A stretch of 64,000 nucleotides of DNA from Ruegeria sp. 6PALISEP08 (GTDB lineage Bacteria > Pseudomonadota > Alphaproteobacteria > Rhodobacterales > Rhodobacteraceae). The DNA is taken from positions 1 through 64,000 of the forward strand of contig NZ_LGXZ01000001.1 of the NCBI RefSeq assembly GCF_001238295.1, read 5' to 3'. The position numbers and the translations under genes were made by a program. Below are positions 42,266 to 49,520 of this stretch, piece after piece. Below the pieces are notes generated by a model. The model saw nothing but the letters and a program-made list of their open reading frames with translations. It had not been told where the DNA came from and made no database searches. Each line of letters begins with the position of its first letter. Within the stretch, counting starts at the first letter, position 1.

Positions 42266-42979
42266 TCAAGGACGGGCTTCGGACAGCACGAGGCTGTCCA
42301 ACTCTCGGATCAGTTTACGGATCATGGCATCTTCATAGGCCTCAAACCCCAACGCGACCTCGACGAAGGCGTTTGGCCCTGAAATGACCCAGGCCGTGTA
42401 ATAGGCGGAAAGCTCGCCCACCTGAACAAAGCGCTGATCTCCGGCCTTAGGGTCATCCGCACCGATGACCAGACCGTTGATTGTTATTCCGCTGTTACGC
42501 AGTGTAGCTCGAACTTCGCGGGGATGGGTCCCAAGATTATGCTTGCCATCTCCAGACAGATCCAGCGTACGCCGCCAGCATGAATTTTGCTGCCGTAGCA
42601 AATCGGCGCCAAACGCCATCGCGGATCCAACCGCAGTGCCTTGCGGTGTCGAGCTGCGTGAAGTTTCGATCAAAAGGGTGTTGATTGCGTTTAGATCGAC
42701 CTGGGTTTGAATCTCGGTCCAGTTCAGCAGCATTCGTTCGTGCCCGGGCTCGTTCCATTCAAAAACTGCCAGTCTTATGGATGTCGCGTCATCGGCCAGC
42801 ATCAGCTGGCGCACTTCAGGGTGTTGCAGCGCAGCGGCCACGCCCTCTAACTGCAACCTGTATTCCCCGTTGTCGACTGACCCCGACACGTCCAGACCCA
42901 AAGCCAATGCGTGCCGGCACTGCGCATGAACAGGCCCGGATATCAGGCAGAACAACACGACAAGCAGACGCGCAATCAT
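42266..42979 (-). CDS. DUF1194 (VWA-like) secreted protein, copy 2
   Basis: The 237-residue protein has a signal peptide (MIARLLVVLFCLISGPVHAQ) and a von Willebrand A-like fold with the MIDAS-type start LALGLDVSGSVD and LDLSGDGKHN. The DUF1194 family is common in Rhodobacterales and of unknown function. It follows a paralogue with an ATGA overlap, and both follow gloA. It shares with that paralogue the patterns LDLSGDG, ITINGLVI and a C-terminal RKLIREL. Confidence 0.88.
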   Translation of the reverse strand: MIARLLVVLFCLISGPVHAQCRHALALGLDVSGSVDNGEYRLQLEGVAAALQHPEVRQLMLADDATSIRLAVFEWNEPGHERMLLNWTEIQTQVDLNAINTLLIETSRSSTPQGTAVGSAMAFGADLLRQQNSCWRRTLDLSGDGKHNLGTHPREVRATLRNSGITINGLVIGADDPKAGDQRFVQVGELSAYYTAWVISGPNAFVEVALGFEAYEDAMIRKLIRELDSLVLSEARP

Positions 42980-43677
42980 TGGCCAACACGTCCAATCGCG
43001 CCGATCTGCAGTCCGCTCAGTTCCCTCTTAAGCTTCTTGCGCATGGCGCGTTCGAAATCTTCAAACCCCTGTGCCACTTCAAGAAAGGCACCGGGGCCAT
43101 GCAGGACGTTGTTCTCAAAGAAGGGAACCAGAAACAGTTCACCTTCAAAATCGGCGGCGTTGATAACCAGGCCATTGACCACAACGTCACGGGTAAAGAA
43201 CCGTTGATACGCGATCTGCGGCCCATACCCGTCATTGTTGGACCCGTCACCGGACAGGTCTATCGTATGAAACAGGCAAGAGGGCGCGCTTTGCAGCAAT
43301 TTGGCCCCAAACCGCAGCGCGTGCCCCATAGCTGTGGCCGAGCCTTGATTGGACCGGATCGACTGGCTGATTTGCGTTGCCGCGGCGATCAAATTTCCTT
43401 TATTTTCAATAATTTGCCAGTTCAGAATGACGTGTTGTGTAGATTGCCCGCTCCACTCGTAGACCGCCAAGGCAACGGGCAGGGGTGAGGAAAAGAAAGC
43501 CTCTTGTACTTCAGGGGCTAAAAGCGCTGCGGCCAATCCCTGCCTCTGCAAAAGATCTTCTGCATCGTCGACCGAGACTGAAATATCCATCGCCAGAGCT
43601 AGGGCCAAACGGCATTGTTCGGCCTTGATAGGGCCGGCCAAAATGGCCAGCCCCATTGCTATGATCCACCGGATCAC
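42976..43677 (-). CDS. DUF1194 (VWA-like) secreted protein, copy 1
   Basis: The 233-residue protein has a signal peptide (MIRWIIAMGLAILAGPIKAE) and a VWA-like start, LALAMDISVSVDDAED. In copy 2 this motif is DVSGS. Here the serine after Val keeps the DxSxS-type metal site. TIDLSGDGSNNDG and the Arg/Lys-rich C-terminus match copy 2. Gene starts and stops overlap as ATGA on both sides, joining gloA and the two copies in one operon. Probable periplasmic location; role unknown. Confidence 0.88.
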   Translation of the reverse strand: MIRWIIAMGLAILAGPIKAEQCRLALALAMDISVSVDDAEDLLQRQGLAAALLAPEVQEAFFSSPLPVALAVYEWSGQSTQHVILNWQIIENKGNLIAAATQISQSIRSNQGSATAMGHALRFGAKLLQSAPSCLFHTIDLSGDGSNNDGYGPQIAYQRFFTRDVVVNGLVINAADFEGELFLVPFFENNVLHGPGAFLEVAQGFEDFERAMRKKLKRELSGLQIGAIGRVGQ

Positions 43678-44102: not shown

Positions 44103-44278
44103 TTTGACTTTCCTTCTTCGATTTATTTTGCCAGCAACTTAGCGCACTGGTTTGACGTGTCGAGTGCACCGTGGTGTCCAAATCGAAAATAGCGCGGGTT
44201 GCGGCATATATCGCGGTTCCGGTGGCGGGATTGGCGAGATATAGTAGGAGGCGACTCATTACCAGAAAGGAAGATTTG

Positions 44279-45187
44279 ATGCCGCTGTCCGCTGACCAAC
44301 AGGCCGAGATCGAAGCGCAACGCGCGCAATCGCATCCCACACGTCGCGCCGTTTCAGCCGGAATGGAAGACCATTTGTACACCGCGCATCAGGTCCTGGA
44401 TCACGGCTTTGTTCGTGTGATCGACTATATGGGCGATGATGCCGCGATCTGTCAGGCGGCCCGTGTATCTTATGGTAAAGGCACAAAATCGGTTCAGAAC
44501 GACGAAGGGCTGATCCGATATCTGATGCGGCACTGGCACTCGACCCCGTTCGAGATGTGCGAGGTCAAACTGCATGTAAAGCTGCCCGTTTTTGTGGCGC
44601 GCCAGTGGATTCGGCACCGAACAGCAAATGTAAACGAATACTCGGCGCGGTATTCTATTCTGGATCGTGAGTTTTATATCCCCGCGCCAGAGCATGTAGC
44701 GGCCCAGTCAGAGGTGAACAACCAGGGGCGCGGATCAGCACTGGAAGGTGAAGAAGCGGCTCGTGTGCTGGAAATCCTGAAAGCCGACAGCACCCGCTGC
44801 TATGACAATTACGAGGCCATGATCAACCAGGATGGACAACAGGGCCTGGCGCGTGAACTGGCTCGGATGAACCTGCCTGCGAACATCTACACGCAGTGGT
44901 ATTGGAAGGTCGATCTGCACAACCTGTTCCATTTCCTGCGTTTGCGCGCAGACCCTCATGCGCAGTACGAAATCCGCGTATACGCCGACGCGATGTGCAA
45001 GATCGTCGCCGACTGGGTGCCGTTTGCCTACAAAGCGTTCGAGGACTACCGTTTGGGTGCGGTCAACCTGTCCGCCCAGATGGCGGAGAGTCTTCGGAAC
45101 ATGTTGGCGGGTGAGACCGTCACGCAGGAAAGCTCAGGCATGACCGCCCGTGAATGGCGTGAGTTTGAAGCGATCATCCGCAAGTAA
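44279..45187 (+). CDS. thyX: Flavin-dependent thymidylate synthase ThyX
   Basis: ThyX makes dTMP from dUMP with FAD and methylenetetrahydrofolate. The 302-residue protein has the signature [11 protein letters not shown] (residues 112–122) and further family blocks ([52 protein letters not shown]). GAAAGGAAGA precedes the ATG at 44279. Confidence 0.96.
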
Positions 45188-45642: not shown

Positions 45643-45849
45643 CTACAACGGCTTCAATTCAGATGCCATTTGGCGTCCGTCGCGTCCGTCCTGCAACTCG
45701 TATGAGACTTTTTGGTTGTCTGCGAGTCCGGTGAGGCCGGACCGTTCTACGGCCGAGATATGAACAAACACATCTTTGCCCCCTTCATCAGGGGCAATAA
45801 ATCCATAGCCTTTGGTGGTATTGAACCATTTCACGGTGCCGGTTGGCAT
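45643..45849 (-). CDS. Cold-shock-domain protein (CspA family)
   Basis: This is a 68-residue OB-fold RNA-binding protein with both nucleic-acid motifs, KGYGFIAPDEGG (RNP1) and DVFVHISAVE (RNP2). The protein begins MPTGTVKWFNTTKG, typical of the family. Cold-shock proteins are single-stranded RNA chaperones. The upstream gap of about 210 bp would hold a long 5' leader, common for such genes. A TGACGGCC / GGCCGTCA hairpin (45582–45604) follows the gene but lacks a T-tract. Confidence 0.95.
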   Translation of the reverse strand: MPTGTVKWFNTTKGYGFIAPDEGGKDVFVHISAVERSGLTGLADNQKVSYELQDGRDGRQMASELKPL

Positions 45850-46063
45850 GTCCCGTGTCTCCTTCTACTTACGCATTGTCCCACAAATTGGTGGGGGCTG
45901 TGGTCGGCGTCATCGTAAATCCCACTGTTTCGCGATTGCAGAACAGTCCAATTTACATGTTTCGCCTTTTTCAACATTGCACGGTGAAGTAAAAAATCAA
46001 GAATAACTGCCAAAAACAGGCGTGATTGCCTAAAATGAAAGCACGAGCAGGAGTACCACAGTG

Positions 46064-46381
46064 ATGAAACTTTATGGCTTGAAGGCTTGCGATACCTGTC
46101 GCAAGGCATTGAAATCTTTGCCAGATGCGGAATTTCTTGATGTTCGGAAAGACGGTGTGCCGGATTCTGTTCTGTCGCAAGGTTTTGCCGAATTCGGCAA
46201 TGCTCTGCTCAATACAAGATCAACAACGTGGCGTGGGCTAGATGAAGGCCAGCGCGCAAAAGCACCACTGGAGCTTTTGAAAGAACACCCGACCCTGATG
46301 AAACGCCCCTTGATTGAGGATAACGGTAAGCTGCTGTTGGGATGGACCGCTGAAACCCGGGCGCAGCTTGGTGTTTCCTGA
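46064..46381 (+). CDS. ArsC/Spx-family (YffB-like) protein
   Basis: The 105-residue protein has a thioredoxin-like fold. It begins MKLYGLKACDTCRKAL with the Cys-x-x-Cys of this group, and the C-terminal half contains LIEDNGKLLLGWTAE. YffB-like proteins resemble arsenate reductase, but most have no proven arsenate activity. GTG one codon earlier (46061) is an alternative start. The Arg triad of true ArsC is not clear, so the name YffB-like is safer. Confidence 0.85.
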   Translation: MKLYGLKACDTCRKALKSLPDAEFLDVRKDGVPDSVLSQGFAEFGNALLNTRSTTWRGLDEGQRAKAPLELLKEHPTLMKRPLIEDNGKLLLGWTAETRAQLGVS

Positions 46382-46422: not shown

Positions 46423-46791
46423 ATGCGTAATGCCGCAATGACTTTGGGCGTTATTGCCGGACTGATCGGTATGATCGTCGGGTTTTTCGGATATGCCAAA
46501 GTGGTCGTTGTCGACCATGTCGGCGAAATTGACGGGGTTCTGAGCCAAGTCGATAACCCCGGCCTGATCCAGGCCCTTTCGATTATCGCGCCTTTGCTGG
46601 CAATTGCCGGAGGGGCGATGGCACCTGCGCGAGCTCTGATCGGCGGGGTTTTGCTGCTGATTTCAGCCGGTGCGATGTACTATGCGTTTGGGTTTGGCGT
46701 CTTCACCATGTTCCCGATCGCCTTTGCCGGTGTGGCCGGCGTGCTTGGGCTGGCGGCAGGAAAACCGGACCAGCCCAAAGCGCATTTCTAG
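46423..46791 (+). CDS. Membrane protein of unknown function
   Basis: The 122-residue protein has about four helices (TLGVIAGLIGMIVGFFGY, ALSIIAPLLAIAGGAMAPA, ALIGGVLLLISAGAMYYAF, GVFTMFPIAFAGVAGVLGLA). No family is recognised with certainty. It follows the YffB-like gene by 41 bp, so the two may be co-transcribed, and it stops 1 bp from the end of the convergent bufferin-type operon. Confidence 0.75.
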   Translation: MRNAAMTLGVIAGLIGMIVGFFGYAKVVVVDHVGEIDGVLSQVDNPGLIQALSIIAPLLAIAGGAMAPARALIGGVLLLISAGAMYYAFGFGVFTMFPIAFAGVAGVLGLAAGKPDQPKAHF

Positions 46792-46792
46792 A

Positions 46793-47311
46793 TCATTTCA
46801 GGCGCAGGATACGGTCCAGCGAGAGCGGGCCTGCGCCGTTGATCACAATGACCAGCATCAGGAAAGTCCACATCGTGCGCTGATCCAGGATGGAAGGCGC
46901 GGCGTCAAACAGGCTGCCAAGTTTCACGCCGTGGCCGGTGACGTCGACCAGCGTTTGCACCCAGATGAACCCAATCAATCCCAGCGCCGCCAGACGCGTG
47001 AACAAGCCAACCAGCAACAAGGCAGGCAGGACAAACTCGGCGACCGTTCCGAAGAAGATGACGATGCGCTGGAAGAATGTCATTTGGGACACGTCATATA
47101 AAACGGCCTCGGCCGCCTTGGGGAAGATCTGACCAAATGCACCAGCCGACGGTGAAAAGATCGAACCGTCGATCTTCAGCATGGCCGAGTTCCAGTAGTA
47201 AACCAGCAGAACGGCAATGAAGACCAGCCGCGCAAGTGTTGGAGTCAACCAGTTGGACGCGTGGTCCACCTTCTCAAGAGCAGAATTGTGAATTGAGATC
47301 AGGGCAGTCAT
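46793..47311 (-). CDS. DoxX-family membrane protein of the bufferin operon
   Basis: The 172-residue protein has four to five helices (LARLVFIAVLLVYYWNSAML, VLPALLLVGLFTRLAALGLI, MWTFLMLVIVINGAGPLSL) in a DoxX pattern. In bufferin operons the DoxX gene (named bufD) is the usual last member and may help in redox or secretion of the peptide. Its start overlaps the bufC stop by 4 bp (ATGA), which supports a single operon. Role is inferred from context. Confidence 0.85.
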   Translation of the reverse strand: MTALISIHNSALEKVDHASNWLTPTLARLVFIAVLLVYYWNSAMLKIDGSIFSPSAGAFGQIFPKAAEAVLYDVSQMTFFQRIVIFFGTVAEFVLPALLLVGLFTRLAALGLIGFIWVQTLVDVTGHGVKLGSLFDAAPSILDQRTMWTFLMLVIVINGAGPLSLDRILRLK

Positions 47312-48069
47312 GTCTCCAGCCTTTCGATAGTCACAGAAGTTAATGCACCGCCCTGTAAAAGCAGTGCCAGAGTGGTTCCAAGGTCAAATTCCGGCTGTTC
47401 CGCAGCGGTTTTCTCGAATGCTTCGCCAATTGTGTCGCCATTTTTCATATGGGCGATCCAGTCGGCTCCACCAACGGGCAGCAGTTGGGGAATGGGGTCG
47501 AATTCCGGGCGTGTGATCAACACATCCTCAGCACGTGCATCCGGTTTCGGGGCATCAGCCTCGGTGTTGAAGCGCCAGATCGCGTGGACGGGCCAATCTG
47601 AGCGGATCACCTGCATGGCCGGGGCAAAGTGTAGCCGGGCTTGCATGACCTGCTCGGGATCTACAGCCAGCGCTTCCGCCGGAGCAGGTTGGCTGTCGGC
47701 GGCGTGGTAAGAATTGCGCAGTGCAAGTTCCAGCCGCGCGACATCCGGTAGGTAACCAATATGCGAAAGCTGCTGCATTCCAGCCAGGAAATCGGGAAAT
47801 GCTTCACCGTAGAACATCATCAGCGGCGATGACGGTGGATGCTGACGGAGGAATATCCCGGCCAGCCCGTCCATGTTCTGAGGCCCCAACAGCTTGGTGA
47901 TGACGGGAAACGCCTGATGCATGGCCTCAGTCAATGAGACGGCAACATTGTTGCGATAGACGCTGAACCGGCGACCGGCTGGTTGCGCCTCGGCATCCAG
48001 CAAACCCTCGGGTACGGGGGCCGAGGCATCCATCATGGCTGCGCGGAATTCGGACTGCGAAACGCTCAT
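47308..48069 (-). CDS. bufC: DUF2063 (HvfC/BufC) partner of the MNIO enzyme
   Basis: The 253-residue protein has an N-terminal DUF2063-type helical domain ([60 protein letters not shown]) and a C-terminal region with [19 protein letters not shown]. In bufferin and related systems the partner protein binds the precursor leader and works with the DUF692 enzyme. Start and stop overlap both neighbours by 4 bp. The ATG at 48069 starts [12 protein letters not shown]. Confidence 0.87.
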
Positions 48070-48923
48070 GCCGGAATCCGCTCGAGTGCGGCCTGCGCAC
48101 GAACCGCTTCTTCCCGCAGAACGGGAAAATCGGGGACATCGGTGTCCCATTCGATCAGAACGGGTTTCGGTCCCGAACGCTCCAGCACATAATCCAACAA
48201 GGCCCAGACCGGATCGACGACTTCGCGCCCATGGCTGTCAATCAACAACGGATGGCCATGGTCGTCTTCGTCTTCATCATGGCCGCCAAGATGAATTTCG
48301 CCCACATTCTCAAGGGGGTAAGCGTCAATGTAACCCTGAGGTGAAAAGTCCAGATTGGTCGCTGAAACAAAGACGTTGTTCACGTCCAGCAGCAGACCAC
48401 AGCCGGTGCGTGTGGCGATCTCTCTCAGGAAATCGGGCTCTGACCATGTGCTTTCTTCAAAAGCCAGATAGCTGGAGGGGTTTTCCAACAGCATCTGCCG
48501 CCCAACAGTTTCCTGTACCTGATCGATATGTTCGCATACGCGCGTCAAAGTCGCGTCGGTATAGGGCAGGGGCAGCAGGTCGTTGTAGAAATGCGTGTCA
48601 TGGGTGGACCATGCCAGATGCTCGGAAAAGCTGGCAGGGTTCAGCCAACCGACCAGGTGTTTCAGCCGGGCCAGATGATCGGGGTCAAGGGGGCCTTCGC
48701 CGCCGATGGACAGGCCAACGCCGTGAACCGAGATCGGGAATTGTTCGGACAGGTGGCGCAGCTGCGCCAAGGGGCGCCCACCGTCGCCCATATAGTTTTC
48801 CGCATGGATTTCCAGCCATGCGACAGGCCTTGCGTGTTCGAGTATCTGAGCAAAATGTTGCGGTTTGTAGCCAACGCCCGGTGCTGCGGGCAGGCGGTTC
48901 GACCGGTGTGCATCATCCAACAT
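48066..48923 (-). CDS. bufB: DUF692 multinuclear non-heme iron oxygenase (BufB type)
   Basis: The 285-residue protein belongs to the MNIO (DUF692) family of RiPP-modifying oxygenases, which alter cysteines of precursor peptides. Likely iron ligands of its TIM-like barrel appear in order: [72 protein letters not shown] and [11 protein letters not shown]. Family work on bufferins shows the enzyme forms 5-thiooxazoles on precursor cysteines. It starts 73 bp after the precursor gene and overlaps bufC. Confidence 0.92.
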
Positions 48924-48996
48924 GGGTCAGTTCCTTGATCACGAAAGGGAAAGGGCGGGCGATCTGGCCCGCCCCTCTGAATTCGTATGATCGACC

Positions 48997-49299
48997 TTAT
49001 GCCGGCAAATCGCGTTCCTGGGCTTCCAACGAACCTTTGCGCGGTGTGCCGTCTGCCTCTGCAGGCAGTTCGATGTCCGCGCAGGTGCCAGCGTCAACCA
49101 GGGTCCATGCGTTGCCCTGATAGTCAACGGTCGAGGTGCCCGCGCAGGTGGTGCCGGGGCCTGCGGCGCAGTCGTTCTGACCGGCCAGCGATACTCCATA
49201 GCATTTTTCTTTTGCCTGTGCGGTTGCAGTGGTTGCTGCGCCCGATACGGCGGCTGCGACTGCGGTTGCAATAACCAGGGACTTAGCTGTGTTCGACAT
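48997..49299 (-). CDS. bufA: Bufferin-type RiPP precursor (DUF2282)
   Basis: The 100-residue protein has a signal peptide (residues 1–28, [20 protein letters not shown], cleavage near AQA) and a short mature part with four cysteines at about 33, 44, 52 and 73 ([27 protein letters not shown]). This is the pattern of DUF2282 bufferin precursors, RiPPs that bind copper after oxidation of cysteines. GTG ATG begin the frame; the ATG at 49299 is preferred since GAGGAT lies 7–8 bases before it. It lies 221 bp after thrS on the same strand, so its own promoter is likely. Confidence 0.9.
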
Positions 49300-49520
49300 C
49301 ACGGTAATCCTCTTGATGACTGGGTATGTCTGCTTGTGACACTGACAAAGGTAGTGGCTTGATGGCCAGAGTTGAATTCACGAGCCCGTGTCTCACAAGC
49401 ACGTCAGGGGGCGGCATGCCCTCTTGCAGCGTAATACATTGTTTTTGATGAAAAAAGGATGAAATGTTTCAATCTGGCCCCAAATCGGAGGCCAGATTTC
49501 CAGCGATATGCGGCCGAATG

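Follow-up and report, generated by a model that had tools for sequence, protein, structure and literature searches.

The stretch of DNA analysed here (the window) covers 64,000 nucleotides of Ruegeria sp. 6PALISEP08 and carries on its minus strand the four genes bufA, bufB, bufC and doxX, which encode, in this order, a DUF2282 precursor, an MNIO enzyme, a DUF2063 partner and a DoxX protein (Table 1). This gene order had been proposed in the original prediction, together with 4-bp overlaps among the last three genes. Both the genes and their coordinates were confirmed, and the two overlaps have the sequence ATGA (bufB/bufC at 48066-48069 and bufC/doxX at 47308-47311). The start codon of bufA is the ATG at 49299, a GTG being also present at 49302.

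Table 1. Genes and non-coding features of the bufferin locus in the window, listed in the direction of transcription.
Feature	Position	Strand	Evidence
Tandem palindromic promoter element TSACR-N4-YGTGA-NN-CACR-N4-YGTGA (putative binding site of a regulator)	49378..49406	-	19/19 consensus positions
-10-like TAnnnT box (TACCTT), 24 nt downstream of the element	49348..49353	-	inferred from conserved spacing
bufA, DUF2282 bufferin precursor, 100 aa	48997..49299	-	PF10048, E 7.6e-25
G+C-rich hairpin between bufA and bufB	48950..48976	-	window spacer z -4.4
bufB, MNIO (DUF692) bufferin maturase	48066..48923	-	PF05114 (MbnB_TglH_ChrH), E 3.3e-104
bufC, DUF2063 partner protein	47308..48069	-	PF09836, E 3.8e-23
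doxX, DoxX-family membrane protein	46793..47311	-	PF07681, E 1e-4, 23.3 bits

Profile searches recovered DUF2282, DUF692 and DUF2063 as expected, with PF10048 reaching 87.1 bits on BufA (cut-off 22.4) and PF09836 82 bits on BufC (cut-off 27.2). The fourth expected family, common but not obligatory in Buf1 operons, fell slightly short, as the DoxX score lies just below the Pfam PF07681 cut-off of 23.6 bits; in alignment A2, which contains the window protein and 13 relatives, the DoxX profile matched all 14 sequences at E<=0.001. BufB scored 376 bits against the NCBIfam equivalog NF050167 (MNIO_BufB), over its cut-off of 310. Among MNIO proteins of solved structure, the closest to it in sequence is 3bww (E 3e-46), and a genome search found one MNIO gene in the whole genome. 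No solved relative was found for BufA up to E 10 or for BufC up to E 0.1, and an AlphaFold2 model of BufA, with a mean pLDDT of 51.7, was set aside. Related types gave lower scores: the BufA2 profile NF050166 reached 19 bits against a cut-off of 60, and the precursor bears 4 cysteines and not the 6 or 12 of the Buf2 type; the methanobactin profile TIGR04159 (MbnB) reached 51 bits against 325; and the window proteins stayed under the NCBIfam cut-offs of HvfB, HvfC and HvfX. The four precursor cysteines predicted at positions 33, 44, 52 and 73 are present and are invariant in 40 BufA sequences (alignment A1). Since profiles, cysteine pattern and gene order agree, the bufferin-type assignment is supported. 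Judged by its sequence, the locus of this Ruegeria strain is a bufferin operon of the usual Buf1 type, for which peptide modification and copper binding are predicted.

The structure of the operon is similar to that of the Buf1 operon CC3254-CC3257 of Caulobacter, where the DUF2282, DUF692, DUF2063 and DoxX genes follow each other in the same order (PMC3511200), and the Buf1 precursor also has four conserved cysteines (PMC12452194). The BufA of the window differs in bearing a C-terminal ending of the form GSLE..ERDLPA. The gig operons of Cupriavidus metallidurans and Legionella are likewise described as bufferin gene clusters (PMC12452194), and we liken them to the present operon by that description; in Cupriavidus, gig is induced by Au, Ag and Cu (PMC8224329). 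Captophorins with EGKCG repeats, such as fontiphorin and oxazolin, share the MNIO enzyme and a DUF2063-type partner, and their 5-thiooxazoles and link with copper agree with what is predicted for the present operon (PMC13097082). They differ in that they form another precursor group, the DUF2282 group being little conserved around its cysteines (PMC13097082).

A BufA match was found in all 53 other Ruegeria genomes and in 100 of the 148 genomes searched (own genome counted), which argues against a chance arrangement. In the 116 of 119 loci that reach at least 3 kb downstream, doxX was always present, and bufB and bufC were found in 115. The locus L063 (genome G140, another family of the class) has a DoxX gene directly after bufA, and bufB and bufC were not found in it. 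Among the Ruegeria copies, that of G049 (locus L071) is broken by a stretch of N, which takes up the greater part of bufA, bufB and the beginning of bufC and leaves the upstream element and doxX readable; an apparent gene fusion there, in which a long open frame follows the first part of bufA, was ruled out because the frame crosses the N stretch. In L040, L161 and L165, bufA is doubled in tandem ahead of bufB. Upstream, thrS was found in 125 of the 148 loci that include at least 1.3 kb on that side.

The original prediction had left the control of the operon open, given its thrS neighbour and the lack of a visible regulator. As far as an adjoining regulator protein is concerned this still holds: among the ORF clusters recurring in at least 5 of 118 loci (clusters named by eye), none was an operon-adjacent regulator. 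An ArsR-like ORF beyond thrS (12/118 loci) and a LysR-like ORF (7/118), both named by eye, were discarded as too distant and too rare. At the DNA level, a candidate site was recognised. An alignment of 32 Ruegeria loci revealed a near-invariant block upstream of bufA, consisting of two palindromic units with a period of 15 bp. When its consensus was drawn from 152 bufA genes, which gave 140 distinct upstream sequences after 12 identical ones had been dropped, 107 of the 140 scored at least 15/19, while reversed upstream sequences reached 13 at most. The element was absent (score below 15/19) from the other 33.

The element is nearly exclusive to bufA. Its exact consensus occurs once in the Ruegeria sp. 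6PALISEP08 genome, at the bufA site. With up to 3 mismatches, the full consensus gave 22 matches in this genome, counting the bufA site on each strand, and 12 in the control; all those other than the bufA site had 3 mismatches. When one mismatch at most was allowed, the core GTGAN3ACGN4CGTGA was matched 34 times and the reversed pattern 17 times, and only the bufA site was exact. In the family, the exact element was found in 53 of 295 genomes (294 genera) and the reversed pattern in 0; 29 of 30 fetched exact-match loci have bufA next to the element, the match in L214 lying on the opposite strand. Only 3 of 385 class genomes carried it, two of which belong to the family of the window. The third (G660) is probably a chance match, because this genome does not belong to the 135 in which DUF2282 was matched.

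The exception among the 30 fetched loci is L202 (genome G221), in which the exact tandem element precedes an L,D-transpeptidase (YkuD) ORF (PF03734). The single palindrome TCACR-N4-YGTGA occurs at 10 places (vs. 7) in the genome of the window. One of its copies there (L256, G000:C6:200540-200553) precedes another YkuD ORF (gene at G000:C6:199907-200470) by 76 nt. When the promoters of this gene were compared across 30 Ruegeria genomes, those of the 30 matches fetched, 25 reached at least 8/10 (reversed control, 2/30); ATCAC was kept in 28 of the 30, and the GTGA half was often lost. This promoter is possibly a lead for a further, single-copy target. Copper reportedly inhibits L,D-transpeptidases.

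In Caulobacter, expression of CC3254-CC3257 requires the ECF factor sigma-F, which acts via GTAACC-N16-CGAA and is paired with the anti-sigma factor NrsF (PMC3511200). This operon is induced by copper, and disruption of sigF impairs growth in copper (PMC8224329). The window differs in having the tandem palindrome upstream of bufA and no NrsF (PF06532) match in its genome. Among the 295 family genomes, NrsF matches were found in 45, of which 40 were over the cut-off. The element was missing (12-13/19) from all five previously fetched family loci of NrsF genomes, which carry GTAAC-N16-CGAA instead, at 9/9 in four and 8/9 in one. The regions surrounding NrsF were then fetched from 20 of the 40 over-cut-off genomes, and bufA was found in 14. 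The element occurred in 0 of these 14 (11-14/19), and a sigma-F-like box of 8-9/9 was present 73-111 nt upstream in 13, the sole locus without it being L249, an odd reading. Together, the 19 bufA genes of NrsF genomes lack the element in all cases and have a sigma-F-like promoter in 18. Among 20 NrsF-negative family loci, the element was present in 14, and the other 6 had neither the element nor a box of at least 8/9. The corresponding 2x2 table of element and NrsF gave a Fisher p of 3e-6, uncorrected for the relatedness of the genomes. At the genome level, NrsF and the exact element coincided in 1 genome (G264) where about 7 were expected (p 0.002), related genomes being non-independent samples.

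Anywhere within 250 nt, 35 of the 107 element-bearing upstream sequences scored 8 or 9 for the sigma-F-like box (reversed control, 3/107), and many of these matches begin at the end of thrS. When the count was restricted to 60-120 nt before the ATG, the interval that holds the box in the NrsF loci, at least 8/9 was reached in 0 of the 107, the window included, and in 11 of the 33 other upstream sequences. Because of this distribution, the two promoter types appear to be alternatives at one operon within one family, and our interpretation is that there are two alternative circuits, one of them with a putative regulator outside sigma-F/NrsF. It could still be supposed that a sigma-F-type ECF factor drives the operon of the window as it does in Caulobacter, with the tandem element incidental or auxiliary, and the upstream sequence of the window does contain a sigma-F-like box of 8/9 at about 225 nt. 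This box, however, is located at the end of thrS, outside the 60-120 nt interval that is empty in every element-bearing sequence, the genome has no NrsF match, and the element is conserved far beyond chance. We therefore consider control by sigma-F very unlikely here and retain a regulator acting on the tandem palindromes.

Several features of the element suggest that it acts as DNA within a promoter. A TAnnnT box follows it at 24 or 25 nt in 47 of 73 non-redundant sites, other offsets being found at most twice each. The element would accordingly span roughly -65 to -37 relative to the inferred start and no good -35 is present, as at activator-dependent promoters. Each unit would also permit a short stem closed by a loop of 4-6 nt, and the block might then act at the RNA level, as two riboregulatory hairpins within an extended leader, but this seems most improbable, since the R and Y positions of the first unit do not covary (A stands with C in 13/73 sites), its position 2 is usually non-complementary (G-G in 35/73 and A-G in 12/73), and the fixed gap to TAnnnT fits a promoter. 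The lack of covariation favours a DNA site, which is the reading followed below.

A second non-coding feature lies between bufA and bufB (Table 1). Spacers of 40-150 nt were folded, shorter, longer and duplicate ones being dropped, and of the 120 distinct spacers 91 had a folding z below -2, against 8 of 134 control stretches inside bufB; 11 of the 120 were above -1. The stem sequence differs between genera while the structure is conserved. Because most of these hairpins, inspected by eye, have no clean T run behind them, the hairpin may function as an attenuator or as a stabilising 3' end, which would yield more precursor than enzyme.

The N-terminus of BufA, for which a Sec signal had been predicted, appears signal-like by eye, with Lys, a hydrophobic stretch and A25-x-A27, and is conserved in alignment A1. 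At the other end, the tail after Cys73 comprises 27 residues, including 4 Glu, 3 Asp and 3 Pro. In the 40 precursors of A1, identity of at least 90% was found in 33 of 46 columns of the core (28-73), 9 of 14 of the last part of the tail (87-100), 4 of 13 of the linker (74-86) and 7 of 27 of the signal region. In 30 Ruegeria sequences, the variant codons were 74 synonymous and 7 non-synonymous in the core, 20 and 14 in the tail and 24 and 22 in the linker. These codon counts indicate that the tail is under weaker constraint than the core. A 285-nt form of bufA is present in 12 of 53 same-genus genomes, and in the one that was read (L070) the linker is shorter and the ending GSLEPLERDLPA is retained. 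In other alphaproteobacteria the BufA ending is shorter, often of the GSL type, and the family tail shades into such endings. As aligned, the tail is not peculiar to the window but common to the family, with its last 14 residues conserved.

The original prediction had proposed that this long tail could set a metal preference of its own, and the conservation of the last 14 residues does imply that it does something. A preference for a metal other than copper is nevertheless hardly to be expected, because the tail contains no Cys, His or Met and is family-wide, grading into the GSL endings; moreover, the linker is shortened in relatives that keep the last residues, and recognition by BufB/BufC or stability would fit equally well. 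Such a role is as likely as metal choice. Preliminary evidence from published bufferins indicates that the signal peptide takes part in BufB-BufC recognition, and the Discussion reporting it makes no mention of the C-terminal tail (PMC12452194). A link of the tail with the presence of DoxX was ruled out, DoxX being constant among the loci, as was one with the DoxX subtype, since L043, L046 and L065 pair an RDVP/RDIP/RNIP ending with the other subtype; L055 is one suggestive case for the latter link. In L050 and L054, the BufA tails extend well beyond the usual RDLP ending.

Taken together, these features can be combined into one explanation, a Buf1 operon for a copper-binding peptide whose control by sigma-F/NrsF is replaced by a regulator on tandem palindromes and which is completed by the hairpin, and we consider this explanation probable. 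BufA would be synthesised with its signal-like N-terminus. In published Buf1 systems, the central cysteines are modified and the outer two form a disulphide (PMC12452194), and 5-thiooxazoles and copper detoxification are described in the wider class (PMC13097082). By analogy, BufB and BufC would turn the inner cysteines 44 and 52 into copper-binding thiooxazoles, the peptide would be exported, a Cys33-Cys73 disulphide would form, and the mature BufA would bind surplus copper in the periplasm, DoxX presumably aiding the process in some way. Transcription would start from the promoter without a good -35 and would be switched by a putative regulator binding the two tandem palindromes, which would stand in for the sigma-F/NrsF pair of Caulobacter and apparently of some relatives. 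The hairpin after bufA would favour the precursor mRNA over the enzyme mRNA.

The gene cluster itself is plain, and what is new is the promoter class and the putative regulator that it implies. Bufferins are widely used by bacteria to cope with copper. In the open-access literature examined, the bufferin control described is that by sigma-F/NrsF (PMC3511200), and no account of bufferin control in the Rhodobacteraceae was found. On balance, we favour the view that in many Rhodobacteraceae the bufferin operon is controlled by a regulator outside the described bufferin circuits, reading a 29-bp tandem palindrome nearly unique to bufA and possibly a single copy at the L,D-transpeptidase gene. If this is true, the regulator would represent a new transcription factor that responds to metal and has almost a single target. 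With so sharply defined a putative operator at one promoter, the 29-bp DNA could be used as bait for a metal regulator of these abundant marine bacteria, and two circuits driving one peptide would offer a natural comparison.

The remainder of the surrounding region contains two DUF1194 genes side by side (42266-43677, minus strand), a Thy1 gene (ThyX-type thymidylate synthase, 44171-45187, plus strand), a cold-shock protein gene (45643-45849, minus strand) and a gene for an ArsC-family protein (46061-46381, plus strand). They are followed by a 122-aa ORF (46423-46791, plus strand), which has no Pfam match and adjoins the end of doxX with its own end; 32 of 118 loci have it close to the operon.
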